This document shows, in pieces, positions 1-16,932 of a stretch of 26,197 bases of DNA (positions are counted from its first letter, which is position 1; every line of letters begins with the position of its first letter). Both the position numbers and the translations under genes were made by a program. The DNA is from a virus, in the IMG/VR virus record IMGVR_UViG_3300017783_000174, positions 1 through 26,197 of that record. One strand, written 5' to 3'. The notes below the pieces were generated by a model. That model was not told where the DNA came from. It was given only the letters and a program-made list of their open reading frames with translations, and searched no databases.

Positions 1-3000
1 CTTCCATTGTGACGTCAGTTCTTTTTGTTTGAGTAAACTTACCAGCAGCCGTAGCTCCTTCTGCAAATGAGGCTCTACCTCCTTTGTCATATAGTAAACC
101 TAACTTCGTGTTAGCGATACCAGTAGCCTCACCACTTCTAGTTTCTCCTTCTGGTAAAACATCTTTAACGAACATGTCGTTGTACGATCCATCTTCGTTT
201 ACTATTTTAGTATATAAAAACTGTTGTACCGCTTTTCTTTGCTTAGCGTTTAAATCTTGATTTGCTATTATTCTTTTAGGATCAACACCTATTTGTTTAG
301 CAACAGCTTCTAAAACACCATAAAGCGCGCCAGTAGGTTTAACGTCAGATGCTTTGGTAGGTTTTTTCATCTTACCGTTTTTATCTACTTTAGCAGCATC
401 AACCAATAAGTTTTTAACACCTTTATATGTTAATCCTTTTAGATTAACCTTGTCTTTACCTTTTTGTATCTTGTCAACTCTACTATCTACTTCGTTCTTA
501 GTATCAGTTAATTCTAGTTGATCTAACACTGGCACGGGTCCGTTTACATAAGCATCTTTTCTACCAAGACTTAAGTCTTCGTTTTCAAACGCTTCCATTT
601 CAGTGGATCTATCCGCTTCTAATATGTCAGCTAACGTACCAGCCTCTCCAACTTGTTTATCTAACGATGTTTGTTCAGCGATACCTTCTTTTACATATTC
701 AGCCATAACATCACCTTTAGCTCTATATATAATAGATTTACCAGCTCCACCAGACACGCCTGTTAACCAACCAAATAAACTATCGTTTTTATCTAAACTA
801 TAATTAGTAGCATATCTCTCTGCTATTTTATCTTTTACTTTTCTAGTGAAATCTTTTAACGCTGCTGAATCTAAACCTTTAGCTAACATACCGTGATGAA
901 TTAAACCATCTAGAAGCTTACTATCAACGATCTTCATATAAGCGTCGGTATAATCATTGGAGTTTTCAAACTCAGCGTGATTTTTAAACTTAGGAGAACC
1001 ATCTTCGTTTTTAACGAAACCATCTATATCAGATCTTAAGTCTGGATTAGATTTCATGTTTAAATCTACGGCTTTAGAAAACGCAGTTTGATCAGCCCTT
1101 TCTTGCATACTTCTAGCATTGTCAACTAATTTTCCAGTAGCACCTTGAGCTGTTAACCTAGCTATAGCTCTACTTGGTTTATTGTCTCTAACTGACTTAT
1201 GATAATCTATCATAAAGTTTTTAACATCTTGTGGTGTGTCAAACTTTATTTTAGCCATATTACCAAGGTTATTTTGAGCAAACCTTCTAAATATACCCTT
1301 GACTTTATTTAAACCTTTTTCAGTTATCTCAATATCATTGTCCAACATTAACTCAGAACCAATAGCAAACATTTCCTCTCCTCTTCCTTCTCCCTCCGTA
1401 TATTGACCAGCTCTACGGTTAAATATAGCCATTCCCCTGTCTGTGAATGTCGCGTTTGCATCGTTTTGAAAAACATCTATAAGAGCAGCTCCCATCGCTG
1501 ACTGTGCAGCGGGATCTTTTTTCAAAGTATTATAAAAAGCAGCGTGTATGAACTCGTGAGCAGCGGTATTAAACATACCATCCTTAATTGATGTTTCTTT
1601 GTTTACAAGTAATTCGTAACTAGTAACCTTACCATTAGCATCAAAAACAGGTCTCATAGCACCGTAATTACTAGCGTTACCCTCAAACATGTTTAGTTTG
1701 TTTCTATGCTTCTTATTGTCTGATCTAGAATCGTCAAGCATTTTTTGTAAAGCAGGTATGTCAGCGGGGTCTGTGTTAGGATCGTTTATAGCCTGGTTCA
1801 AACCTGCCCTCATAGCATCATTCTCCATTATGTCATTAGCTAGCCCATCTGGATCTGTACTAATCTGCTCTTGAAACAAATCACTTGAATTTATTTCTTT
1901 AATATCCACACGTGGTCCACCTTGCTCTTCTACTAAAGCAGCTTGACCTCTTAGCCAATCCATTCTTTGTTGATAGCTATTTTCTACGTCTTGTGGTGGA
2001 TACTTATTTATTATCTCGTTTTTCCTAGCTTGGTTTTCGTTAACCTTATCTTGTAATCTCTGTATTTCCTCAGCTTTCTGATCTGGACTTAGAGAATCAT
2101 CAGCCATTATCATCTCAGCTCTTTCTCTATTTAACCTATTAGCATTTTCAATTTTAATAAGTTCAGCTTTCTCGCTATCTTCCATAACGTCAACTCTCTT
2201 AACGTCTTGTTCTATTAACTTGTTGCTTTCTAATATTAAATCAGATATTTCATTTAGATAGGCTTGTCTATTCTCTAGTGTAGTGTTAGGATCTTGAGCC
2301 ATCCTCTCTAATTTGTTTATTCTAGCAGAATTAGATGATACCTTTTGATTTGTATCCATTGATTTAAACGGAGCTGTCATTGCTCTATATAAACCAGGAA
2401 CCTTCATGGTACCACTAATAAGAAGACCACTAACAAATGATTCCGCAACACCATCAAAGATACCAACATCATCCCCCGCTACGGCTTTACTCCAGAAATT
2501 TTCATTCATAGTAGCTATAGCCTCTGATCCACCTTCTTCAAGGAAATCTTTACCTACAAGCGCTAAGTTATCCATAGTCCAAACCTCTCTTTTTAAGAAA
2601 TTTTTAAACCCAAGTTTAGCCGCTGGGTTACCCATAACCCCTTTCATATTCTTCATTTGACCAAGAGTAATTCTTTCAGATAAAGTTTCACCCAAAGCAC
2701 TAGCCATCGCTGTTGAATACATTTGAAGATTGGTATATTTTTTACCATACATGTCCATATCACGTCTCATGCCTCCTATTTTACCACCAAAGCTAGATCC
2801 AAATATTAAACCCTCAGCGAGTGTAACTTCTCCAAGTGCTCCCAAAGTACCCATAGCAGTTCCACCTGTAGCATACATCATAGCTAGAAGAGGTAGTTGC
2901 TGTGCGACTTGTGTTCCTGCCCACAAACCAGCGTCTGCAAAAGTTTCTATATCTCCCATTGCCATTGGTTCTGCTATAGAGTTTCTCATTTCTTCTTGAA

Positions 3001-4906
3001 AGTTAAACAAATCGTTTTTCATCTTTGATCTATGATCTATAAATCTAGGATTGTCCTCGCTCTCAGGTTTGGTTGAGTCAAAGTAAGGGTTTTCGTGTTT
3101 ACCTTCTGTTGCTAATGCTCCTTGGGACGCCAAGGCTCCGGTTACCGGGTTAACCATAGACGCTGTTGTAATAATGCCCTTCATTATTGGATGAATTTCA
3201 TTCTCGTCTATATAGTCATATAGTGCTACGTATGGATTAAAAGAATAAGCAAACTCTTCAAGATTTGCTCCTATATCAATAGCAGCGTTTGCAAGCGTGA
3301 CACCTAAAATAGTACCAGCTTGATAGTTTCTACCAATAGCTTTGAAGTAAATTGCTAAATCTTTTTCCTCAAGCTGTAGTGCTTTTTGGTTTTTGATTAG
3401 AGTACCAGCTGCGCTTTGAAGTCCTTTTCTATCAGCTATAAGAGCACTATAAGTATCACTATCTGTTTGTAGTTCTTTTCTAAGTTTAGCTATTTTAGCG
3501 TTAGCTTTATCAACCTGCTCTTGAGTAGTATATTCTTGGCTAGATATCTCCTTCATATCAGCCATTATTCTATCTCTATTTTTAGTTAACTTACTTAAAT
3601 CTTTATCTATTTTAATGACACTCCCATCAAGAACATTAAACTCTTTAACGAAACGCTCATCATCCCCCTTTAATTCCTCTAATCTTTCTTCTGCTAACTC
3701 TTCTAATATCTTCTGTTGTTCTCCTTTAGTAAAAATACCACCCTCAAAATCCTCAACAAGTTTGCTTACATTTTGACTTATTGAAGCGGCGTGACTTTCT
3801 TCGGTCATTGCCTCTAACACCTTTTTTCTAACTTGTGGATCTTTATCTTCAAACGCACTTACTCTAGCGTTAATCTTGTCTTGATGATTTTTTATTACCT
3901 CTTCGTATCCTTTTGTTCCCTCTAAACCTTCTTCTTCCATAACCTCGTTAATGGCTATTTCCAATTTAGCTTTTTTCTCTTTGTTCTTTATATTAGCAAC
4001 CCATTGGAAATCTTCCTTGTCAGTCTCTGGTTGCCATATATTTGTTAATCCACTGGTGTTATACTCCATGTCTGTAGCGTTGAGCTCAGTAGAATCATTA
4101 TCATTAAAATTAAACGCGGGAAATAAAGGTGTAACTCCATCCGCTTGAAACTGCATACTTGTTTTACCTAACTTATGATTAAAATAAACACCACCACCGC
4201 CAGTAGGCGCTTCCTGCCAAACCCAATCTGGATTATTTTGATATTTACTTACGCTAGTGTTTTCTGCATCTATATTTCTTTCTTTTTCTTGATCAAAGTC
4301 ATTTACTAGATCATATCTATCTAAAACTTGTTGATCGTTCATTAAGTTTTGATGTGTCTGGTCTTTAGTAACAGATACTTCTTCTATACTTTGTTTTAAC
4401 GGACTCACCTTATCATAAGTAACTCTTTCTTGCATCCAAGCGGTCATAGCGGTAGCGGATTCATCGTTACCATTTACATCGAATGGTTCACTTCTCTCTC
4501 CAGAGCCAACAATCTCTTCCCCATATCTATTTACTTGAGGTGGACCTATTATAACAATATTATTAGTACCAAAGCCTTGCTGTTCGAACTTAAACCCATA
4601 CCTATTATACATGGCAAGATCGTCTTGTGCTTTCTCTTCTGTTTTATCAGTTATATCAGTTGTTACTGGAGGTAGGTTTATAGGTCCATCCGTAGAATCG
4701 TCCGCCCCAGTAGATGCCCCATCTTCTCCTTCCACAGTGACATCCTCCTGTGGTGAATCCCCCTTTACTTCTTCAGGTTCTGCTGGGAAGTCTTCTTGGG
4801 TCGCTGGTTTATTTAAAGCGTTATAACGTTTTATTACAGCAGCAATATTTTCTTCAGTTTCTCCAGAGTTAACCATACTCTGAACTATATCTCTTAATTC
4901 TGCCAT
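1..4906 (-). CDS. Giant internal virion protein with HEFIH metallopeptidase motif (partial, C-terminus missing)
   Basis: An open frame of at least 1635 codons from ATG at 4906 (MAELRDIVQSMV, A/T-rich leader) that runs off the left edge with no stop. Residues 30-110 are acidic, low-complexity. About 430-490 is a likely coiled coil. Around 524-550, 574-599 and 653-710 lie Gly/Ala-rich hydrophobic stretches (QQLPLLAMMYATGG, AEGLIFGSSFGGKIGG) that could insert into a membrane. Long E/K/Q/R helices follow (about 860-955). At H1117-E-F-I-H1121 there is a zinc-metallopeptidase HExxH motif, with a candidate third ligand at E1177/E1178 in GEEMFA. The layout (long helices, hydrophobic middle, enzymatic domain) and the place as third and largest gene of the trio match ejected core proteins such as T7 gp16, but with a peptidase rather than a transglycosylase. 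It also resembles polyvalent proteins that phages inject with their DNA. Substrate unknown. Confidence 0.75.
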   Translation of the reverse strand, partial: MAELRDIVQSMVNSGETEENIAAVIKRYNALNKPATQEDFPAEPEEVKGDSPQEDVTVEGEDGASTGADDSTDGPINLPPVTTDITDKTEEKAQDDLAMYNRYGFKFEQQGFGTNNIVIIGPPQVNRYGEEIVGSGERSEPFDVNGNDESATAMTAWMQERVTYDKVSPLKQSIEEVSVTKDQTHQNLMNDQQVLDRYDLVNDFDQEKERNIDAENTSVSKYQNNPDWVWQEAPTGGGGVYFNHKLGKTSMQFQADGVTPLFPAFNFNDNDSTELNATDMEYNTSGLTNIWQPETDKEDFQWVANIKNKEKKAKLEIAINEVMEEEGLEGTKGYEEVIKNHQDKINARVSAFEDKDPQVRKKVLEAMTEESHAASISQNVSKLVEDFEGGIFTKGEQQKILEELAEERLEELKGDDERFVKEFNVLDGSVIKIDKDLSKLTKNRDRIMADMKEISSQEYTTQEQVDKANAKIAKLRKELQTDSDTYSALIADRKGLQSAAGTLIKNQKALQLEEKDLAIYFKAIGRNYQAGTILGVTLANAAIDIGANLEEFAYSFNPYVALYDYIDENEIHPIMKGIITTASMVNPVTGALASQGALATEGKHENPYFDSTKPESEDNPRFIDHRSKMKNDLFNFQEEMRNSIAEPMAMGDIETFADAGLWAGTQVAQQLPLLAMMYATGGTAMGTLGALGEVTLAEGLIFGSSFGGKIGGMRRDMDMYGKKYTNLQMYSTAMASALGETLSERITLGQMKNMKGVMGNPAAKLGFKNFLKREVWTMDNLALVGKDFLEEGGSEAIATMNENFWSKAVAGDDVGIFDGVAESFVSGLLISGTMKVPGLYRAMTAPFKSMDTNQKVSSNSARINKLERMAQDPNTTLENRQAYLNEISDLILESNKLIEQDVKRVDVMEDSEKAELIKIENANRLNRERAEMIMADDSLSPDQKAEEIQRLQDKVNENQARKNEIINKYPPQDVENSYQQRMDWLRGQAALVEEQGGPRVDIKEINSSDLFQEQISTDPDGLANDIMENDAMRAGLNQAINDPNTDPADIPALQKMLDDSRSDNKKHRNKLNMFEGNASNYGAMRPVFDANGKVTSYELLVNKETSIKDGMFNTAAHEFIHAAFYNTLKKDPAAQSAMGAALIDVFQNDANATFTDRGMAIFNRRAGQYTEGEGRGEEMFAIGSELMLDNDIEITEKGLNKVKGIFRRFAQNNLGNMAKIKFDTPQDVKNFMIDYHKSVRDNKPSRAIARLTAQGATGKLVDNARSMQERADQTAFSKAVDLNMKSNPDLRSDIDGFVKNEDGSPKFKNHAEFENSNDYTDAYMKIVDSKLLDGLIHHGMLAKGLDSAALKDFTRKVKDKIAERYATNYSLDKNDSLFGWLTGVSGGAGKSIIYRAKGDVMAEYVKEGIAEQTSLDKQVGEAGTLADILEADRSTEMEAFENEDLSLGRKDAYVNGPVPVLDQLELTDTKNEVDSRVDKIQKGKDKVNLKGLTYKGVKNLLVDAAKVDKNGKMKKPTKASDVKPTGALYGVLEAVAKQIGVDPKRIIANQDLNAKQRKAVQQFLYTKIVNEDGSYNDMFVKDVLPEGETRSGEATGIANTKLGLLYDKGGRASFAEGATAAGKFTQTKRTDVTME
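1515..1560 (-). other. HExxH zinc-binding motif
   Basis: The coding strand reads AAHEFIHAAFYNTL around residues 1115-1128 of the giant protein, the usual small-hydrophobic HExxH zinc-binding helix (the two His and the Glu). The candidate third ligand is in GEEMFA, about 56 residues downstream (positions 1361-1381), as in gluzincin-type peptidases. Frame continuity to both the start and the window edge was checked by hand. Confidence 0.75.
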
Positions 4907-4909
4907 ATA

Positions 4910-6325
4910 TTATGAATGTTTTTTAATTAACGCGTCAATATCAGCATCTGCACTAACATTTGCTTTCTTATTAGCCGCATTAGCTATGTAAGTAGATACA
5001 GATTCCATTTGCCCAGTTTGAGGATTTAAAATCTGCCCTTTAGGGTCGACACCTATTTTATTAGCTATAGCTTCTATGGACATACCCTCGTATTGTTTAA
5101 GGTTTGCTGGATCATCTAATGCTGTTAATTTTTTTAATGTTTCAGCTCTATTAGCAGCTTCTTTGTCATTAGGGTTGAAATCATCTAAACCAAGTATGTT
5201 GTTTTCTTTCTTATCTTTGTTGTAATCTTTGTTAGGTTCACCCACTATGTTCTTTAATCCTCTAGCGGCATATATATCTGTTAATATACCATGAGTTATT
5301 TCAAGATCTTTTACATTCATAACATTGTTAATCAACTCATCTTTAAACTCTTGAGGTATCTCGTCATCTGTAACACCGTTTTTACCATCTTTGTCAAGAT
5401 AAGCATATTCTGGTTTTGTTAAATCAATACCTAAAGAATCGTATGTTTTAAGGTCACTTTCCATAAGATCTATTAAATAACCCTCAACATCTAAATCGTG
5501 TTGTTCAGCAGGGTTACCATGTAACCAATCTCTTATAGCTTTGTTATCTCTTGGTATTATCTCTCCGATTTTTCTTTTCATTTCACCCTGAGTTGGTATT
5601 TGCCTAGTACCATCAATAATACCTTGTTTTATCTCCCCCTCTAAATCTATATACTTGTTACCGTTAACGGTTTCTTTTAAAATAACTTTGTCTTGCAAAT
5701 CTTGGAGAGAGTATGTTTGAAGTTCTGTTATTGGCTCACCATTTTCATCAACCTCTCCAGTATCCATATCCCACTCGTAATACATTTTACCATCTTTATA
5801 TACTGTTCTTTTAGAATCGTTTGCTAAAAAGTTTTCCATAACGTCTACATCCTCTCTACTCATAGCATCTGTACTTACAGGCATGTTGCCGTTCTCATCT
5901 TTCTGCCAACTATCAACAAACGTTTTAAGATTATCTGCATCACCAGCGTGTCTATCTTTTATCTTGTTAAGCTCTAACATTAAATCTTGTTGACACTTAG
6001 TATCTTTAGCGTCTATACACTCATACATTCTATATCTTAAGTCTTCAACTTCACTCTGCGCTTGATTAAAAGATTCTTGAGGTAACTGAGAAATGGTTTC
6101 TGATAAATTAGTAAACTCTTGGGATATTTTATCTCCAGCCGCGTTTCTTTCTTCTTTAAGTTTTTTAGCTTCGGCTTTTTTCTCTTCAGCCATCGCTGAG
6201 CCGAATGTATTGATCTGCTTGCCAATACCAGTAAGTATATCAGCCGCACCTGTATCCAACTTATCAGGACCCATCTGTTGTCCCATTTTGTAAAAATTAC
6301 CACTACCCGCTGTGTTTTCTGCCAT
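4910..6325 (-). CDS. Putative internal virion protein, 471 aa
   Basis: The middle gene of the internal-protein trio. N-terminal residues 1-45 are Gly-rich and mildly hydrophobic (GAADILTGIGKQINTFGSAM), then comes a Lys/Glu coiled-coil stretch (about 46-65) and helical segments to about 140 with two Cys (MYECIDAKDTKCQQ). The centre has charged helical and turn segments. At about 309-320, DKDGKNGVTDDE resembles an EF-hand loop, with one displaced Gly. The C-terminus has a repeat-like motif, IANKIGVDPKG, that recurs in the next gene. There is no signal peptide. The 17-nt gap before the start is A/T-rich. Proposed as a core/ejection protein from gene order, size and composition; it could instead be a scaffold or an uncharacterised virion protein. 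Confidence 0.6.
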   Translation of the reverse strand: MAENTAGSGNFYKMGQQMGPDKLDTGAADILTGIGKQINTFGSAMAEEKKAEAKKLKEERNAAGDKISQEFTNLSETISQLPQESFNQAQSEVEDLRYRMYECIDAKDTKCQQDLMLELNKIKDRHAGDADNLKTFVDSWQKDENGNMPVSTDAMSREDVDVMENFLANDSKRTVYKDGKMYYEWDMDTGEVDENGEPITELQTYSLQDLQDKVILKETVNGNKYIDLEGEIKQGIIDGTRQIPTQGEMKRKIGEIIPRDNKAIRDWLHGNPAEQHDLDVEGYLIDLMESDLKTYDSLGIDLTKPEYAYLDKDGKNGVTDDEIPQEFKDELINNVMNVKDLEITHGILTDIYAARGLKNIVGEPNKDYNKDKKENNILGLDDFNPNDKEAANRAETLKKLTALDDPANLKQYEGMSIEAIANKIGVDPKGQILNPQTGQMESVSTYIANAANKKANVSADADIDALIKKHS

Positions 6326-6342: not shown

Positions 6343-6954
6343 TTATCCTCCAAGACCACTACCTAAAAGCGAGCTACCAATTCCAGCTACAGCATCTCCT
6401 TTAGCTTGCTGAGCAGCATCTTTAGCGGCTCCAGCAGCCTGAGCTTCACCAGCTGACATGTTCATTAAATTCGATGTTTTATCGTACTGTAGTTGTCTAG
6501 ACTTATCAGCACCAGCTATTTTAGCATCTTGTATTTTAGAAGCTTCTGTTGCCGCAGCTTTTTGATTAGCAGCTTCTTGATCACCAATCATCGCTCCAGC
6601 TTTAGCCGCGTCTTCAGAACCTTGGTTGGCCATTTGTTGTGCTAGTGCAGCTATACCAGAACCACCAGCAGCGCCTTTCAAACTATCCATAACGTTAGCT
6701 CTACTTTGAGCAGATTTTTGAGACTGAAGTTCCATACCTTTTTGGTTAATAGTAAGGTCCTCCATTTTGTTCTCCATGTCTTTATTTAGATTAGAAGTGT
6801 CTAAAGCTTCGTATTGCTTTTTCTTAGCATCCATTTCTGCTTTTGCTTTCTTCTGGGCTTTAGCTGCTTCTTTTTTAGCTTTATTAGCAGCACTCATTTT
6901 CATGACACCACCAACAACTCCTACAACCGCTCCCGCTGCCATTATAAAACTCAT
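6343..6954 (-). CDS. Putative internal virion protein, small Ala/Gly-rich
   Basis: A 203-aa protein rich in Ala, Lys, Gln and Gly. Residues 2-20 (FIMAAGAVVGVVGGVM) are a Gly-patterned hydrophobic stretch. A long helical, probably coiled-coil region follows (ANKAKKEAAKAQKKAKAEMDAKKKQYEAL and onward), then Ala/Gln/Gly segments ending SSLLGSGLGG. This pattern, a hydrophobic glycine-zipper start followed by long helices, is that of the smallest of the three internal core/ejection proteins of podoviruses (gp14 of T7 by position and style). It is also the first of three genes of rising size, as in T7 gp14-gp15-gp16. The start is one base past the cupin stop. Function inferred from composition and order, not from detectable homology. 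Confidence 0.62.
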   Translation of the reverse strand: MSFIMAAGAVVGVVGGVMKMSAANKAKKEAAKAQKKAKAEMDAKKKQYEALDTSNLNKDMENKMEDLTINQKGMELQSQKSAQSRANVMDSLKGAAGGSGIAALAQQMANQGSEDAAKAGAMIGDQEAANQKAAATEASKIQDAKIAGADKSRQLQYDKTSNLMNMSAGEAQAAGAAKDAAQQAKGDAVAGIGSSLLGSGLGG

Positions 6955-7604: not shown

Positions 7605-7961
7605 TTATTTACTACTATCAAAGTAATCAGCACTAATTTGAAATATCTCTGCTTTGCTTTGAGAGTTGTTTCTTATAGTTAGTTCAGCGTAGTAACCAAG
7701 CAAACTAGACATGTTAGCTTTATTGTCTTTTGAAAATAATATAAAATCTGACGCCGATGGCCACGAAGAGCTTGTTAAATTGGTATTACATGTTATTTGA
7801 TTTAACGCATTATCAACAATTGTTATAACTCCAATCGTAACAATACTAGAAGAGTTGATAGTAAACGAAGAACTTGTTGCTGTTGGGACGTAATAAGCCA
7901 CGTCTCCAACCTGTGCAGAAACGTTTATGTCGTTTGAAAATGTAAGTGTTATTGATGCCAT
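7605..7961 (-). CDS. Small beta-rich structural protein, 118 aa
   Basis: A single-domain protein starting MASITLTFSNDINVSAQVGDVAYYVPT, which I recall as a frequently seen small protein in tail regions of uncultured marine phages, with no named function. The sequence is strands separated by short polar turns (SSFTINSSSIVTIGVITIV, NQITCNTNL, DFILFSKDNKANMSSLLGYYAELTIRNN), ending in a short helix or strand (AEIFQISADYFDSSK). One Cys is present. The size and fold prediction suit a fibre, decoration or baseplate-type component. It starts one base after the 350-aa gene. A 46-nt A/T-rich gap separates it from the next gene. Confidence 0.65.
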   Translation of the reverse strand: MASITLTFSNDINVSAQVGDVAYYVPTATSSSFTINSSSIVTIGVITIVDNALNQITCNTNLTSSSWPSASDFILFSKDNKANMSSLLGYYAELTIRNNSQSKAEIFQISADYFDSSK

Positions 7962-9792: not shown

Positions 9793-12700
9793 TTAAATAG
9801 TAGTAATACTTGAGCACGTATTACACGTGGGGCAAGATGTTCCAATAGAATAAAACCCAGGTGTAAACACATCAGTGCAACATTGTTTATTGGTTTCTAA
9901 ATATCTACCACCACCTCTATCATCCATCATTGTGTAAACATCCTCAATACTTTGTGTCTGTGAGTCAAGTGCTGGGCTAAATACAGGGTTGCCCGCATTA
10001 TCTTGAAACGAATTAAGCGCGTCAACAGCCGCGTTCCAATTACTCGGATACACTGGACTAAAAGTACCAATCCCAATTGCTGACATTGAAGTACCACTAA
10101 CACCATTAATTATAGAAGTAACTTCTCGATGTCCAGATGAGGTTGTTGAAGGAATACTTGTTATAATGTGCTCCATACCGGGTGAAACCCCCCATTCTAC
10201 GTGAGTTAAATTACTCCACGCTTCTATGACATTGTTAGGATATTCAACGCCAACCTTCACTCTTATTAAAATTTTAGTTATCCTTTCATATATAGGGTTA
10301 CCAATAGCGCTTACATCACGTTGAACCCAAGAATTACTACTTTGAACATGCTCTCCTTGCATACCAAAGTCTTGGTGAGATACCAACATTTCACTTGGCC
10401 TGTAAGTTTCCTGAGGATAGTCAACGTACCAAGATGTACAAGTGCCGCAACCAAACACATTACCTCCACCACAAGGGAAAGATCCTATAGGATCTTCAAC
10501 CGACATTTGCCCCCACCATTCACAACCATTAGCGTCTATAAAGCCCGCTTCATAAGTGCCTTCTCCTAAACCACCCCACCACAAACTCACTGTGTTACCA
10601 GAGTAAGTTATATCAGGGGTTTCCCAGTCGGTATACGTAGGTGTTGGTTGTAACACTGTAATTGGTGCAACTACGTTGCTTTGCGAAAACCCAAAGCCAC
10701 CATCAGTAGCTCCAGCTGAAGAAGTAGTGGTACTTTGTCCGCTTCCACTTGGATCTGTCATAACTAAAGTTTCAACACAGCATTTATCTTTTAAAAACCC
10801 ACAGTCATTTCCATTGTCACAATCACAAGAGTAATAACACGATCCATCATCTACATTCGCGTTGGCATTATAATTTACAGCTGTAGTATCCGTACAACCT
10901 GGCCTGCTTTCTATGCAATTCTCGGGATCATCAACTGTAGCATTAGGATTATAATTAAGAGCGTTAGGATCCATACAACCAACAACAGCGCACGATCCAT
11001 CATCTACAGTAGCGTTTGGATTGTAATTTGAAGCGCTAGGATCCATACAGCCATATACAGATCCACATGTAGCTAAAGGTTCTATAGTTAAACATAGTTC
11101 ACGCGGCTTATCTTCACCGCCTCTATCTTCAGATACCTCAGCTGCCATTCCAATTCCTTGTACTGAAAATTCGATTTCATCTAAATTGCTTAAGCTAGTT
11201 GAACTACCTTTTATATAACTAAACCACTTCCCTTCTTTTTCTTTAAACTCTAATTGACCAGTATCTTGTAGATCTGTAATTATATTATCAACATACCAAC
11301 CGTTCTTAGAGTTTAGATTGAAATACTCTTTATCATCTTTTCTCGATGTAATCCTAGCTTGCGTGCCCTCGTAATTAAGTGTTGCAAAACTTTTAACACT
11401 AGATGGGTTGTCATTAAACAACACTGTTAAACTAGAGTCATACTGTACACCATAAAAATAATTTCTAACCTCGTTATAATGATGTCTATACATGTGCCCG
11501 TTTTTAAACGTGTAGTAATTGTTATTTATACTAAGACCATTTTCTGGTATAAAAGATTTAAAAGAAATCCAACCCTTACTGTTTTCACTAAAGCTAAGTG
11601 TTTTTGAAAATGATATTAAATTACTACTACTCTCGAAACCGTTGTACGATCCTTCTTTAGCATGAATAATCTCATCACCCCTACCATCACCCTTGTCATC
11701 ATCACAACCACAGCCATTAACCTCTTCGTTAATAATATCATCATCTGGTTCGTTGTCTGGAATTTTTGGCTCTATTTTACCCGTTATAGTTATATTGTAT
11801 AAACTTTTCTTTTGATCAAATGAACCACATATTTTTGTTGTATGAGGGTTTAGGTGGTCATTAAACCAATCTTTCATACCATAGTCAGATATATTTGTAA
11901 TACCATCGTTAGATAGTCTTAAAACGGCTCCTCTTGATCTGTCGGCAAAGTATAATCTACCAGCTAAGTCTACAGCGCATGATTCAGGATTTGTAGATAT
12001 ACCATACTTAGTAGCAAAAGGTTGATCTGATCCTAAAAAGTTAGATGATACAGCTACGTTTGATTTGCCATCAGCATTAAACAAAGCATTTTTATCAGCT
12101 AATACTTTCATACACTTATCCTCATGTAGTACAACTATGTTAGAATCTCTTGTATGTAGCTTTTGAATACTGCCATACGAAGGGTTCATATCTTTAGTTA
12201 TCTTTTCTGCCGCTATAAATTGGTTCAAATTATTGACACCACTAGTAGAGTTGTATATACCAGAGTGTATTAAACCTGTTTTTCTTCTTTCCTCCTTGTA
12301 AGGCGTTGCCATAACAGTAGAAGCTTTAACACCGTTGGTAATTGTTTTCTGATTATAGTCATCACGTATTCTATCAGACTCTATCCCATTACCAAAAGCA
12401 TAAGCATTATGCCAAGCCAGTGTTACTGGTTGGTTGTGTGGAGCGTCAGAATATACGTTAGGAACCACTGGTGGAACAGGTATACTTCTTATTTGTATTA
12501 CGTTTGACGTATAAGGAAACACAGTACCACCTGCGTATTTGTGGATAGCGTGTGTCCTGAGACCATCTTGTCTTAAGAATACAAATCTAAATCCAGCGCT
12601 AGGCACAGTAACACTATTGCTTAATGTAGCTGTATTACCACTCCAACTTATAATAGTTGTGTTAGCTGGGAATGGTGGTCCGTAATCACCCATAACAATA

Positions 12701-15700
12701 GATCCGTAAGGGGCAAACTGTTCATTTGTTTTGTAATCAACTCTTATCGGTAGTGCTGGAGAAGCTTCATAATATATATCCATACCAACATCCTCCTTAG
12801 GCTCTGTCTCCCAAACAGCAGGGTTTTTAGAACTCCAATCGCTATCTTCATCTTCAATTGGCTCAACTATTTCTATATAATGATATTTTGAAGCGTGCTG
12901 TCTCCACCTACAAGTTTGTGTTCTTCCATCTATAAAATCACCATCATTTCTAGTCATACCACTACTGCTACTTTGCAAAATAGTCATACCAGAACTTCCA
13001 CCACCATAACCAGGCGGTGTTGGTACTCTCATGGTTCTGGAGCCTGAATTTCTTCTTGGATCATTAATATTCACTCTCCAATGCTCGTGCTTATGTCTAC
13101 CTCCCCAATAACCTAATTCTTGAACACCAGGTGTTTTAGTTGCGGCCTTACCTCCTAGTGGGTGGTATTTTTCAGTAGACTGAGGATCTGGCAAAGCAAC
13201 ACCAGGCATGTCAGCTCTTTCAAAGTCAATTCTCCACCTCCACTTGTTATTACCAGAAGGGCCCCAATTATAAACAGATCCATCTCCATCTGATTTTTCA
13301 TGGAAACAGTGGTGTGCACCATAACGAGCACAATCAGGTGAAAGACCATCTCCGTTAGGATTTGTTCCATAACTATTTTTAACAGTATATACTATCCCTT
13401 CTTCATCCTCCCTAAATCTAAAATTAGTACCCGCTGTTTTAAGCAACGCCATAAAGTCTTTATCATCTTGTGAGTACCACTTGTAAATACCTGATGTTAT
13501 ATAACCAATATCCATGGATCCTTGAGGAACTCCACCAGCACCGTGAACTCCTAAACCTCTAGTACAACCAGTTTTACAATTATCACTCAAGCACTCTCTA
13601 TCAGGATCGCAGTTATAACCATTGGAGGCTTTTGCACCTCTAACGTACATGGCGTCAAAATGAAAACGCCCACCGCTATTTCGCGTCCACCTTTGTGTAG
13701 AGTTCATCCCAGCACAAGTGGCACCCCAACCCGCACCATCTTTAAACCCGTTCATAGCTGTTTTAAAAAACAACTCATTATCACTACAACTCAAGCCAGC
13801 GCAATCCTCACCATCACAATTACCACTAGCACCACTAAGTAAATCCCCCTCATTGTTAACACCACATCTTTCCCAATTTGTTTCACCACTTGCGCCAGAG
13901 ATTTTGTAACCTTTACCCTTTGGCATATTGAAGTATCCAATTTTAGCAGCACTAGTAACCCTGTACTCTGGCTCAGCTGACGTCAATAAGTTATCTATTA
14001 AAACTAAGTCCTTATATATTTTTACAAAGAATCTTCCTTCAAATTCTTTTTTATTCTCTACTTTTCTATCCGCAAATTCTATCTTTACACCAGCAACTCT
14101 ACCAGCATAAGTACCATCAGTAGAAGTAAAAGCCATGTCTGGCCCAAATGGTTTGTCTGATTTAAACTCTTGTCCGCCTGCAGTTGTACCACCTTTCATA
14201 TTTGAAACTTGATACCAATCTGATTTTACGTTAACTGTTCTCGCTCTCATCCAAAGAGTACCAGCATGTATTTTACCCATTAAATCCGTGCCTCCCTCAG
14301 GGCTACCAGCTCCTAAAACATCATCATAACCACTAATAGCTCCATCAAACCGTATTTTATCATAATCTTCTAGCGGAAACCCAATAGTAGACGAGCCAAT
14401 TGTACCTGTGACTTGACCTAATGATTTAGTATTTGTTTTAATAAAATCTGGTGCTTCATTTTCTATAGCTAATATTTTGTATCTTGCTGGATCAGTAACT
14501 GGTTCGTGAGAATCGTGTTTCTTTTTTAATATTATAAAAGTTTCTCCATCTACTTTATTTCTATCAGCACTAGCAAATGACAACCATATATTACCATCTT
14601 CAGCATCATACCAACGATCCATAGCCATGTTGTAAAACTCATTTGACGTTTCTTTTACAAACAACTTGTAATAATAAGCAAATGTTGGTGCATTTGAACC
14701 TATATCAACTCTAAGTTTATTTATTGTGCTAGAGTTTTTAACATCTATAGTTAAACTACCAGTACCTTTTTTACCAGCTAACACCGGTGTTTCCCTCCCG
14801 TACTCATCACCATATACAACCCCAACTTGATATGTACGTAAAGATCTACAAGTTTTAACTGGTGAAGCAAAGCCTTCTAAATTATCCTCACCGTTTAAAG
14901 GGTTTTGTGATGTACCTTCAGGAGCGTTTAGTGGAGCGTCAAGAGCAAAAAGATTAACGTTAATAATTGGCTTTATTTCATTGTCAGCCCAAGGGTGTGT
15001 TACATCAAAGTTTTGCACATAATTACCGTAAACTAATCTATTGCTAGTTATTTCTTGTGCTAGCGCTTTTCTTGGAACGTTATCCCATGGTCTCAATAAT
15101 TGGTTTGAAGGAACCGTAGCGTTTATTAATTCTGAAGTAACCTCGTACTCACCTCTAAACCTACTAGTAAACCAAGAAGGTAAAGCTGGTGATGATGGGT
15201 GGTTAAGCGGATCTGGCCACAGTTTTTCACCCTCAAGTGACCAACCATCTGTCATTTTAATAGACTCTACAGTATATATGTTTGGGGAGCTTTCGTCTTT
15301 ATAAAGTAAATCAACTTGAACTACATCTTGAGGTCTTTCAGAGTCTTCTGTAATATAATCAGCTATTTTTAATTGTCTCAACCTGTTTGTCATACCTAGA
15401 TTAAAACCTTTTTTAGGAAGATAATCATATTCTCCAGGTAAAAAAGCTAACTCAGAAAAAGGTGAATAAGTTGAAAACTCACCATCTTCATATTTATATC
15501 TATAAGCAAATCGAACAAATTTAAACTCAAACATTGGTTTCTTTTCTTCCAACCTTAATCTCCACACTTTTTGCTCTTCATCAATAGATTCTCTATCTAT
15601 AGATTGTATTGTTAATTCATAGCCACTGTTATTTGGTACAGTGCCTGGTACTGATGTAACTGTAGCTCTAACGTCGTGTTCCGTAAATCCCTCAGCACTG

Positions 15701-16932
15701 TTGGCATCATCTTCATCAGCATAGTCTTGGTTCATTAATATCATGTCACCAATTTTCCAGTGTACGGCGTCGTCCAACGTAAAACCACTCATGGTATCAC
15801 CTGGGTTTTTAACAGGATTTGTTGTTCCACCAAAATTTACCACAAAAGAATTACCTGACGCCGATGGAGGGCCAGAAATACCAGACGAAGGATTTGAGTT
15901 TGTTTTAGAGAATGTTTGAGCATCTCTATCATCCTCGTGTTTAGACATTATTAACCTTGGAGGAGTTCTAGGACCTTTTTTAATTACCGTTACATTTTCT
16001 TCTGCGACATACCAAACGTTATCAATACTTCTTTTTTTAACTCTAAGTTCATGATGTGAGTCAGGTGTTATACATAATCTAGTGTGCCAATCAGCGTTAT
16101 CACCGTTAAATGTCAAAAGAGGATCCGGTAGTTCAGTAGTACCACCAGTACCACTTATAGATCTTGTTATGTTTATTTTCTTTGGCTCAGTATCATTGTC
16201 TGTCCAAAACAACATATCATCAATTATATTGATACCTGTTATATATTTATCTTTTTGATCACACTTACTACTATCGTAACATGCGTAACTAAAATTTAAA
16301 ATTCGCTTAGATGTACATTGTAATAACGTAGAACTTGGAACTGAAGTTGTATTGTAATCGACATCGTCACTGTATATGTTTATAGTATTTGGAGGAGTGC
16401 CCTGCGAGATGACTTCTGTTATTTGTGAGTCGTTGGAGTATATAACTTGACTACCACCAGCAAAGCCGTTAATGATCATTTCTTTTCTAACAACACTAAG
16501 TGTTGGTGACGATAACGCTATAGATATATCTCTACTAGTTGAAGTGCCTGTTGTTTTTAGATGAACTCTATATATATCAACAAACACATATTTAAAGCTT
16601 TCAGTTTTTACGTCATACTCTATAATATAATCTTTCCAAACACCTTCAGTATTAGAGCTAATGGTTTGGTCATAACGAGGGCCAGCAACTAGATAATATA
16701 TTTTATCTTCTTTATTATGAGCAATACTACCCACACACGTACTACCAACAGGCACCATACCCGCTGACATTAAAACATTTCCTAATAAACTTTGCGCCGA
16801 TCCAACGTCAGAATCGTCTGATGATGATATTTGAACGTTTAAAGCGTCTCTATATTCTCCAGTAGGAACGACACGCTCGTCCATGTCTTTGTTCATTTTA
16901 CTCTTAGAGAATCCTTTATTTAATTGCGGCAT
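9793..16932 (-). CDS. Giant tail stabilization / muzzle-type protein with host-like Cys-rich C-terminus
   Basis: A 2379-aa protein, the largest complete gene here. The N-terminus (MPQLNKGFSKSKMNKDMDERVVPTGEYRDALN) is one I recall from proteins called stabilization or muzzle proteins in marine and crAss-like phages, which close the short tail. The core contains YKYEDGEFSTYSPFSELAF (about 475-495) and, at about 1788-1815, the conserved SFIPENG...YYTFKNG region followed by FNDNPSSVKSFATLNYEGTQARI. Inside the core are atypical insertions: about 1019-1125, with nine Cys, and about 1722-1757, an acidic loop with NGCGCDDD and RGD. Beyond about 1960 the protein changes character: three GCxD...NYN..A..DD..C repeats (1961-2032), a Ser/Thr/Gly linker, an SprB-like segment (about 2095-2150, GTYEAGFIDANGCEW), and a Cys-rich end (SCPTCNTCSS). 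The N-terminal part likely builds the tail and the C-terminal part is a candidate receptor-contact region. The start is fixed by the conserved N-terminus. Confidence 0.82.
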   Translation of the reverse strand: MPQLNKGFSKSKMNKDMDERVVPTGEYRDALNVQISSSDDSDVGSAQSLLGNVLMSAGMVPVGSTCVGSIAHNKEDKIYYLVAGPRYDQTISSNTEGVWKDYIIEYDVKTESFKYVFVDIYRVHLKTTGTSTSRDISIALSSPTLSVVRKEMIINGFAGGSQVIYSNDSQITEVISQGTPPNTINIYSDDVDYNTTSVPSSTLLQCTSKRILNFSYACYDSSKCDQKDKYITGINIIDDMLFWTDNDTEPKKINITRSISGTGGTTELPDPLLTFNGDNADWHTRLCITPDSHHELRVKKRSIDNVWYVAEENVTVIKKGPRTPPRLIMSKHEDDRDAQTFSKTNSNPSSGISGPPSASGNSFVVNFGGTTNPVKNPGDTMSGFTLDDAVHWKIGDMILMNQDYADEDDANSAEGFTEHDVRATVTSVPGTVPNNSGYELTIQSIDRESIDEEQKVWRLRLEEKKPMFEFKFVRFAYRYKYEDGEFSTYSPFSELAFLPGEYDYLPKKGFNLGMTNRLRQLKIADYITEDSERPQDVVQVDLLYKDESSPNIYTVESIKMTDGWSLEGEKLWPDPLNHPSSPALPSWFTSRFRGEYEVTSELINATVPSNQLLRPWDNVPRKALAQEITSNRLVYGNYVQNFDVTHPWADNEIKPIINVNLFALDAPLNAPEGTSQNPLNGEDNLEGFASPVKTCRSLRTYQVGVVYGDEYGRETPVLAGKKGTGSLTIDVKNSSTINKLRVDIGSNAPTFAYYYKLFVKETSNEFYNMAMDRWYDAEDGNIWLSFASADRNKVDGETFIILKKKHDSHEPVTDPARYKILAIENEAPDFIKTNTKSLGQVTGTIGSSTIGFPLEDYDKIRFDGAISGYDDVLGAGSPEGGTDLMGKIHAGTLWMRARTVNVKSDWYQVSNMKGGTTAGGQEFKSDKPFGPDMAFTSTDGTYAGRVAGVKIEFADRKVENKKEFEGRFFVKIYKDLVLIDNLLTSAEPEYRVTSAAKIGYFNMPKGKGYKISGASGETNWERCGVNNEGDLLSGASGNCDGEDCAGLSCSDNELFFKTAMNGFKDGAGWGATCAGMNSTQRWTRNSGGRFHFDAMYVRGAKASNGYNCDPDRECLSDNCKTGCTRGLGVHGAGGVPQGSMDIGYITSGIYKWYSQDDKDFMALLKTAGTNFRFREDEEGIVYTVKNSYGTNPNGDGLSPDCARYGAHHCFHEKSDGDGSVYNWGPSGNNKWRWRIDFERADMPGVALPDPQSTEKYHPLGGKAATKTPGVQELGYWGGRHKHEHWRVNINDPRRNSGSRTMRVPTPPGYGGGSSGMTILQSSSSGMTRNDGDFIDGRTQTCRWRQHASKYHYIEIVEPIEDEDSDWSSKNPAVWETEPKEDVGMDIYYEASPALPIRVDYKTNEQFAPYGSIVMGDYGPPFPANTTIISWSGNTATLSNSVTVPSAGFRFVFLRQDGLRTHAIHKYAGGTVFPYTSNVIQIRSIPVPPVVPNVYSDAPHNQPVTLAWHNAYAFGNGIESDRIRDDYNQKTITNGVKASTVMATPYKEERRKTGLIHSGIYNSTSGVNNLNQFIAAEKITKDMNPSYGSIQKLHTRDSNIVVLHEDKCMKVLADKNALFNADGKSNVAVSSNFLGSDQPFATKYGISTNPESCAVDLAGRLYFADRSRGAVLRLSNDGITNISDYGMKDWFNDHLNPHTTKICGSFDQKKSLYNITITGKIEPKIPDNEPDDDIINEEVNGCGCDDDKGDGRGDEIIHAKEGSYNGFESSSNLISFSKTLSFSENSKGWISFKSFIPENGLSINNNYYTFKNGHMYRHHYNEVRNYFYGVQYDSSLTVLFNDNPSSVKSFATLNYEGTQARITSRKDDKEYFNLNSKNGWYVDNIITDLQDTGQLEFKEKEGKWFSYIKGSSTSLSNLDEIEFSVQGIGMAAEVSEDRGGEDKPRELCLTIEPLATCGSVYGCMDPSASNYNPNATVDDGSCAVVGCMDPNALNYNPNATVDDPENCIESRPGCTDTTAVNYNANANVDDGSCYYSCDCDNGNDCGFLKDKCCVETLVMTDPSGSGQSTTTSSAGATDGGFGFSQSNVVAPITVLQPTPTYTDWETPDITYSGNTVSLWWGGLGEGTYEAGFIDANGCEWWGQMSVEDPIGSFPCGGGNVFGCGTCTSWYVDYPQETYRPSEMLVSHQDFGMQGEHVQSSNSWVQRDVSAIGNPIYERITKILIRVKVGVEYPNNVIEAWSNLTHVEWGVSPGMEHIITSIPSTTSSGHREVTSIINGVSGTSMSAIGIGTFSPVYPSNWNAAVDALNSFQDNAGNPVFSPALDSQTQSIEDVYTMMDDRGGGRYLETNKQCCTDVFTPGFYSIGTSCPTCNTCSSITTI
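10839..11052 (-). repeat. Three tandem Cys/Asn/Asp repeats in the tail protein
   Basis: Residues 1961-1981, 1985-2006 and 2012-2032 of the tail protein share the pattern GC(M/T)D..A.NYN.NA.VDD...C, at 21-22 residues per unit with 3-5 residue spacers. Each has one Cys near the start and one at the end, fitting one disulfide per unit, and an Asn/Asp-rich centre that could bind calcium. The DNA copies are also similar. Such repeats are frequent in secreted proteins of marine Bacteroidota, as I recall. Confidence 0.8.

Follow-up and report, generated by a model that had tools for sequence, protein, structure and literature searches.

A zincin-like metallopeptidase domain in a giant, likely ejected protein of an Elemovirus-related podovirus

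Gene order and the slot of the giant protein

The window analyzed here is a single IMG/VR virus fragment of 26197 bases, in which the main genes all lie on the minus strand. The terminase end is followed by the portal gene (phrog_6547), genes for a 392-aa protein, a structural protein (phrog_13704) and other virion proteins, a gene for a 2379-aa protein, and finally a trio encoding 203 aa, 471 aa and a giant protein (Table 1). As the first-pass annotation had described, the last of these is an open-ended protein of more than 1635 aa: its ORF (2..4906, minus strand, 1635 aa readable) exits the window at the left end. The internal trio proposed in that annotation is likewise present, in the same order as in relatives.

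Table 1. Features of the giant gene and of its two neighbors in the window
Feature	Position	Strand	Basis or remark
Giant protein gene, first 1635 codons, open-ended	2..4906	-	3' half outside window
S3 module, residues 664-959, partly Gly/Ala-rich	2030..2917	-	Profile
Metallopeptidase-like domain, residues 1053-1266	1109..1750	-	Conservation, profile, model
HEFIH, residues 1117-1121; predicted zinc ligands H1117 and H1121, predicted general base E1118	1544..1558	-	
E1178, predicted third zinc ligand	1373..1375	-	Conservation
E1185, acidic residue 7 after E1178	1352..1354	-	D or E in 48/50
S5, conserved region after the domain, residues 1269-1634	5..1102	-	Profile
471-aa protein, second of trio; place of N4 gp51 / T7 gp15	4910..6325	-	Position only
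203-aa protein, first of trio; place of N4 gp52 / T7 gp14	6343..6954	-	

The relatives of the portal are Caudoviricetes MW202828 (50%), Maribacter phage Panino (46%) and the Flavobacterium elemo phages (42%), followed by Cellulophaga phi38:1 (37%) and phi13:2 (29%). The virus is a podovirus related to Elemovirus and Callevirus. Given these portal relatives, its host is probably a member of the Bacteroidota; the named relatives of this short-tailed virus family infect Flavobacteriia. When the host was sought through genome contigs, the matches were only to phage-like contigs in unrelated MAG bins, and therefore no host was assigned from them.

In the elemo phages, MW202828, Panino, phi38:1 and phi13:2, a giant protein of 1691 to 3859 aa is encoded 3' of the same structural-gene block, and complete giants of the IMG/VR relatives (L111-L123, L014-L021) measure about 3042-3978 aa. 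The slot protein is annotated as structural in phi38:1 and elemo; the papers on phi38:1 virions make no mention of gp101, its slot protein. Only one part of the window giant, the S3 module, is matched by profile also in the giants of Elemovirus, Panino, phi38:1 and phi13:2, with 236 bits in the window protein and 38-72 bits in the named phages. Since S3 is found even in these phages, the giant slot is homologous among them. The region that follows the metallopeptidase-like domain, S5, scores 370 bits in the window protein, and its profile matched 45 of 61 giants.

The first-pass annotation had also placed Gly/Ala-rich hydrophobic stretches upstream of the motif. The enrichment in Gly and Ala is present in mild form (25% G+A at residues 524-600 and 33% at 655-720; the protein as a whole has 17%). 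Hydropathy is mild too: the Kyte-Doolittle mean stays at or below 1.35 in every 19-residue window, and the readable giant thus lacks a classical transmembrane segment. The S3 module may possibly interact with membranes.

As for the other two members of the trio, the 203-aa protein has a hydrophobic N-terminus followed by an Ala/Gln-rich helix, and the 471-aa protein had no sequence match in phage records or IMG/VR. Some members of the 203-aa family (L005, L007, L008, L009) end in SDRRxKxxI...GVMSDEVPxxAV, which we take to resemble the intramolecular chaperone (Peptidase_S74) motif; that motif is usual in tail spikes, and here it stands in a putative internal protein. Elsewhere in the window, a 118-aa protein (7605-7961) and the 2379-aa protein (9793-16932) match different parts of the same PHROGs, 38031 and 18548, which suggests that they are pieces of one ancestral protein, now two genes.

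Conservation and predicted fold of the HExxH domain

Direct sequence searches of phage records and IMG/VR with the window giant returned no relative, and the family was opened through its 203-aa neighbor. That neighbor gave nine loci, and its alignment (A3) extended this to at least 535, from which 80 were retained. At each locus, the giant was taken as the largest ORF downstream of the 203-aa neighbor, and those with at least 1500 readable residues (61 in all) form the counted set. An HExxH motif occurs in 58 of the 61 giants, exactly one in 57, compared with 0.9 expected from residue shuffling; these 58 share ancestry and hence are not independent, but their domains have a median pairwise identity of 18%. 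The motif is absent from the three giants of Panino, phi38:1 and phi13:2.

In the window protein, the HEFIH and GEEMFA motifs reported by the first-pass annotation are found at residues 1117-1121 and 1176-1181, respectively. Of the two glutamates in the latter, E1177 and E1178, it is E1178, 57 residues after H1121 and so close to the stated distance of about 56, that is conserved: 59 of 60 domains keep it, including all 50 in the domain alignment A4, while E1177 is kept in 40 of 60. The spacing from the first His to this Glu ranges from 51 to 112 residues (median 61), and 48 of the 50 domains in A4 carry D or E seven residues further on. Because the 50 sequences of A4 were chosen by HExxH, the invariance of that motif within A4 holds by construction and is uninformative.

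A profile in which the four catalytic columns were masked, built with half of the family held out, recovered 26-28 of 30 held-out domains at E<1e-3, and nearly all of these matches span the HExxH. In addition, the first profile, made from nine sequences, matched the elemo giant, which was not among its members, at E=3e-7. The A4 profile found no match in phi38:1, phi13:2, Gundel_1, Panino or N4. When homologues were checked for loss of the predicted catalytic residues, these residues were seen to vanish only along with the whole domain. Separately, the MW202828 giant (L021) carries two HExxH domains; HEFGH occurs at 1621 and again at 2506 of its open frame, and the family profile matches either copy at an E of about 2e-17. 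The elemo giant (L020) has a DUF3293 domain at 1323-1392 (E 1e-12), about 150 residues upstream of its metallopeptidase domain; in the giant of a Flavobacterium elemoA phage (QMP84709), the motif reads HEIFH.

In a first AF2 model (260 aa, pLDDT 70), a helical N-terminus predominated, and the only matches were to helical bundles. With A4 as input, AF2 reached a pLDDT of 87.3 and a pTM of 0.80 and predicted a helix (2-24), two strands (31-37 and 43-50), a helix (63-77), further helices and a helix at 124-137. The HExxH (H66-H70 of the model) lies on helix 63-77, and E127 of the model, equivalent to E1178, on helix 124-137. This layout is close to the polyvalent MPTase core of PMC5512222, but has two main strands versus the three described there. 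Foldseek with the second AF2 model gave no match to solved structures at E<=0.001, a result that by the tool's own note does not establish a new fold, and VIA placed collagenase 8jt1 at Z 2.9 over 106 residues, which is within noise.

No Pfam, PHROGs or NCBIfam model and no PDB sequence search names the domain. Weak Pfam matches include the HExxH peptidases DUF6782, M78, M13, M35, BSP and DUF5700, and may reflect the motif alone. Since Pfam does not detect even the HExxH domain of N4, its silence is uninformative about membership among the MPTases. We classify the domain as zincin-like, of the HExxH...E (gluzincin) type, with all predicted catalytic residues present (H1117, E1118, H1121 and E1178). 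This metallopeptidase domain is real and conserved, and it is probably active. Altogether, conservation, a fold predicted with confidence and the homology of the slot give good support to the proposal that the likely ejected giant contains a zincin-type domain.

Module order and comparison with known phage proteins

Residues 313-1635 of the window giant match the complete giants L111-L114 at E values of 1e-220 to 1e-232. Segment profiles in the relatives give a constant module order: S3, the metallopeptidase, S5, a variable stretch, a HAD-type domain, 700 conserved residues, and Cys/His knuckles that match DUF5763 at the C-terminus. The HAD-type domain has the motifs DxDxT, LTARP and DDA..N and matches the polynucleotide kinase phrog_415 (E 7e-5). 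In all 52 giants where HExxH and this cargo can both be read, the HExxH comes first, and in 33 of 33 it has S3 on one side and the cargo on the other. The giants of Panino, phi38:1 and phi13:2, in which the metallopeptidase is missing, also lack the cargo and S5 and are short, and elemo and MW202828 have the domain without recognizable HAD cargo. To judge from the nearest relatives, the cargo of the window giant itself would lie beyond the window end.

We also observed that the C-terminal ~900 residues (2070-3042 of L111 and their equivalents) are far better conserved than the rest; in L111, they comprise the HAD motifs, the stretch of about 700 aa and the terminal Cys/His knuckles. In six of 50 HAD-bearing giants (L019, L115, L116, L120, L123 and probably L016), a P-loop kinase of the AAA_33/Zeta_toxin family (GGAGSGKS) is nested in the HAD domain about 34 residues after motif I, before the LTARP and DDA motifs (2206-2545 in L019, 2556-2895 in L115). 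T4 Pnkp differs from this nested arrangement in that its kinase and phosphatase stand in tandem. Neither the C-terminal cargo (A7) nor the HAD-kinase part of L019 found a match when searched against the PDB.

The giant resembles T7 gp16, which carries a transglycosylase, in being the last and largest of three internal proteins. The part of the window giant that can be read showed no match to a lysozyme or transglycosylase family. The first-pass annotation had drawn its comparison with the third core protein of T7-like phages; the last-of-three place is indeed shared, but T7 alone is too limited a reference. An HExxH domain is already present in N4 gp50 (vRNAP), which is third among the ejection proteins of schitoviruses (PMC12633501; PMC5512222), and for this reason a protease in this slot is of an already known kind.

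The parallel with N4 extends to the slot, as the 203-aa, 471-aa and giant proteins correspond in place to gp52, gp51 and gp50. For these N4 proteins, the proposed structures are a channel in the outer membrane, a tunnel through the periplasm and a giant anchored in the membrane, respectively (PMC12633501). The gene order from portal to giant is similar, and gp50, a giant of 3500 aa, has one HExxH, a membrane-inserting N-terminal part and a large, mostly helical C-terminus (PMC12633501). In contrast to the giants studied here, the HExxH of gp50 (C1 subdomain) lies at 2228, after the RNA polymerase. The vRNAP domains PF21894, PF21769, PF21867 and PF21624, found in N4, occur in none of the 13 complete giants at E<=0.01, and no N4-type virion RNA polymerase was found in them. 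Aligned by hhalign with the N4-type HExxH domain, our domain scored prob 50 (P 1.7e-4) with ten schitovirus sequences and prob 6 with N4 alone, a weak profile similarity that is mostly the motif. Although a comparable domain occupies the corresponding place in N4, we do not file ours as an N4-family member.

Polyvalent-protein MPTases have been described in 12 clades (Iyer et al. 2017; PMC5512222). Like these, as in P1 DdrB (PMC5512222), our domain has an HExxH helix and a later Glu helix with an insert of variable length between them, and it sits in a large phage protein of several domains, among them unrelated enzymatic ones. Specifically, the relatives combine a metallopeptidase, a HAD domain and sometimes a P-loop kinase in one polypeptide, of which the window itself holds the protease part only. 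The main text of PMC5512222 does not mention polynucleotide kinase or phosphatase cargo. What is new is a zincin branch invisible to Pfam, nearly universal in the Elemovirus-related group and upstream of HAD-phosphatase-like cargo; overall, it adds a new branch to the zincin theme known from polyvalent proteins, in an arrangement that is likewise new.

Proposed self-processing and alternative roles

The slot, together with the structural annotation in phi38:1 and elemo, points to probable delivery of the giant into the host with the DNA. We favor, with about even confidence, the reading that the giant is a probably packaged and ejected polyvalent protein whose zincin-like domain most likely cuts its own chain. 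By analogy with N4, the trio would be stored in the head and then ejected, and the upstream module of the giant would stay at the membrane. The protease would cut the chain and free the cargo from the N-terminal part; this cut could precede packaging, as has been suggested for P1 DdrB, or follow ejection (PMC5512222). In the relatives, the freed cargo would consist of the HAD-phosphatase-like domain, sometimes with the nested P-loop kinase, and the conserved 700-aa C-terminus. Self-processing is ranked first because the domain is always upstream of the cargo and is absent where the cargo is absent, in the three short giants. There is also a precedent in P1 DdrB, which is processed before packaging; its own MPTase is the proposed processing enzyme (PMC5512222). 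Against self-cleavage, N4 vRNAP has an HExxH domain and yet is packaged uncut (PMC5512222). We further count against it that no solved structure matched, that elemo and MW202828 have the domain without HAD cargo, and that the cargo of the window giant lies outside the window.

The main rival, which we consider a good deal less likely, casts the domain as an injected protease effector whose target would be a host protein (of defense, envelope or cytoplasm), cleaved early in infection. Early delivery fits such a role, conflict systems are known to include zincin effectors, and the role is allowed by Iyer et al. (PMC5512222). The domain also diverges fast around its active-site residues, as might be expected if the target varies. 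However, its near-universal place upstream of the cargo suits processing better than an optional effector. Improbable, in our estimation, is a more specific form of release, in which the giant would be a preloaded, protease-released nucleic acid repair package with a HAD 3'-phosphatase and sometimes a nested 5'-kinase. If this were true, a polynucleotide kinase/phosphatase would act as soon as infection begins, for instance to counter defenses that cut tRNA or DNA.

Slightly less probable again is that the fold and metal are kept for a structural or regulatory role, or for other HExxH chemistry, without proteolysis. N4 vRNAP is unprocessed (PMC5512222), its C-terminal domain is autoinhibitory and inhibits transcription (PMC12633501), and HExxH is present in other enzymes as well; nevertheless, the third-ligand Glu and the acidic residue at +7 are kept in nearly all domains, and the motif, general base included, in 58 of 61 giants. 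We give still less weight to the suggestion that the domain matures other virion proteins, such as the 203-aa and 471-aa proteins, in the head: the giant is encoded directly after their genes and is probably packaged with them, but phi38:1, phi13:2 and Panino keep the slot order without a protease. Finally, HExxH is short enough to arise by chance in a long protein, an explanation made hardly credible by its presence in 58 of 61 slot-mates versus 0.9 expected and by the masked-profile cross-validation.

The presence of zincin domains in ejected phage proteins was predicted in 2017, with processing of the carrier protein or attack on the host as the proposed roles. In the Elemovirus-related group, such a domain is near-universal and has a constant place upstream of enzymatic cargo, and the slot proteins of phi38:1, phi13:2 and Panino (1691-1990 aa; gp101 in phi38:1, gp127 in phi13:2) share the module of window residues 664-959 without the metallopeptidase and without the HAD cargo. 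Since natural relatives lack both protease and cargo, a clean comparison is possible, and cultured phages exist on both sides: the Flavobacterium elemo phages with the domain and Cellulophaga phi38:1 without it.
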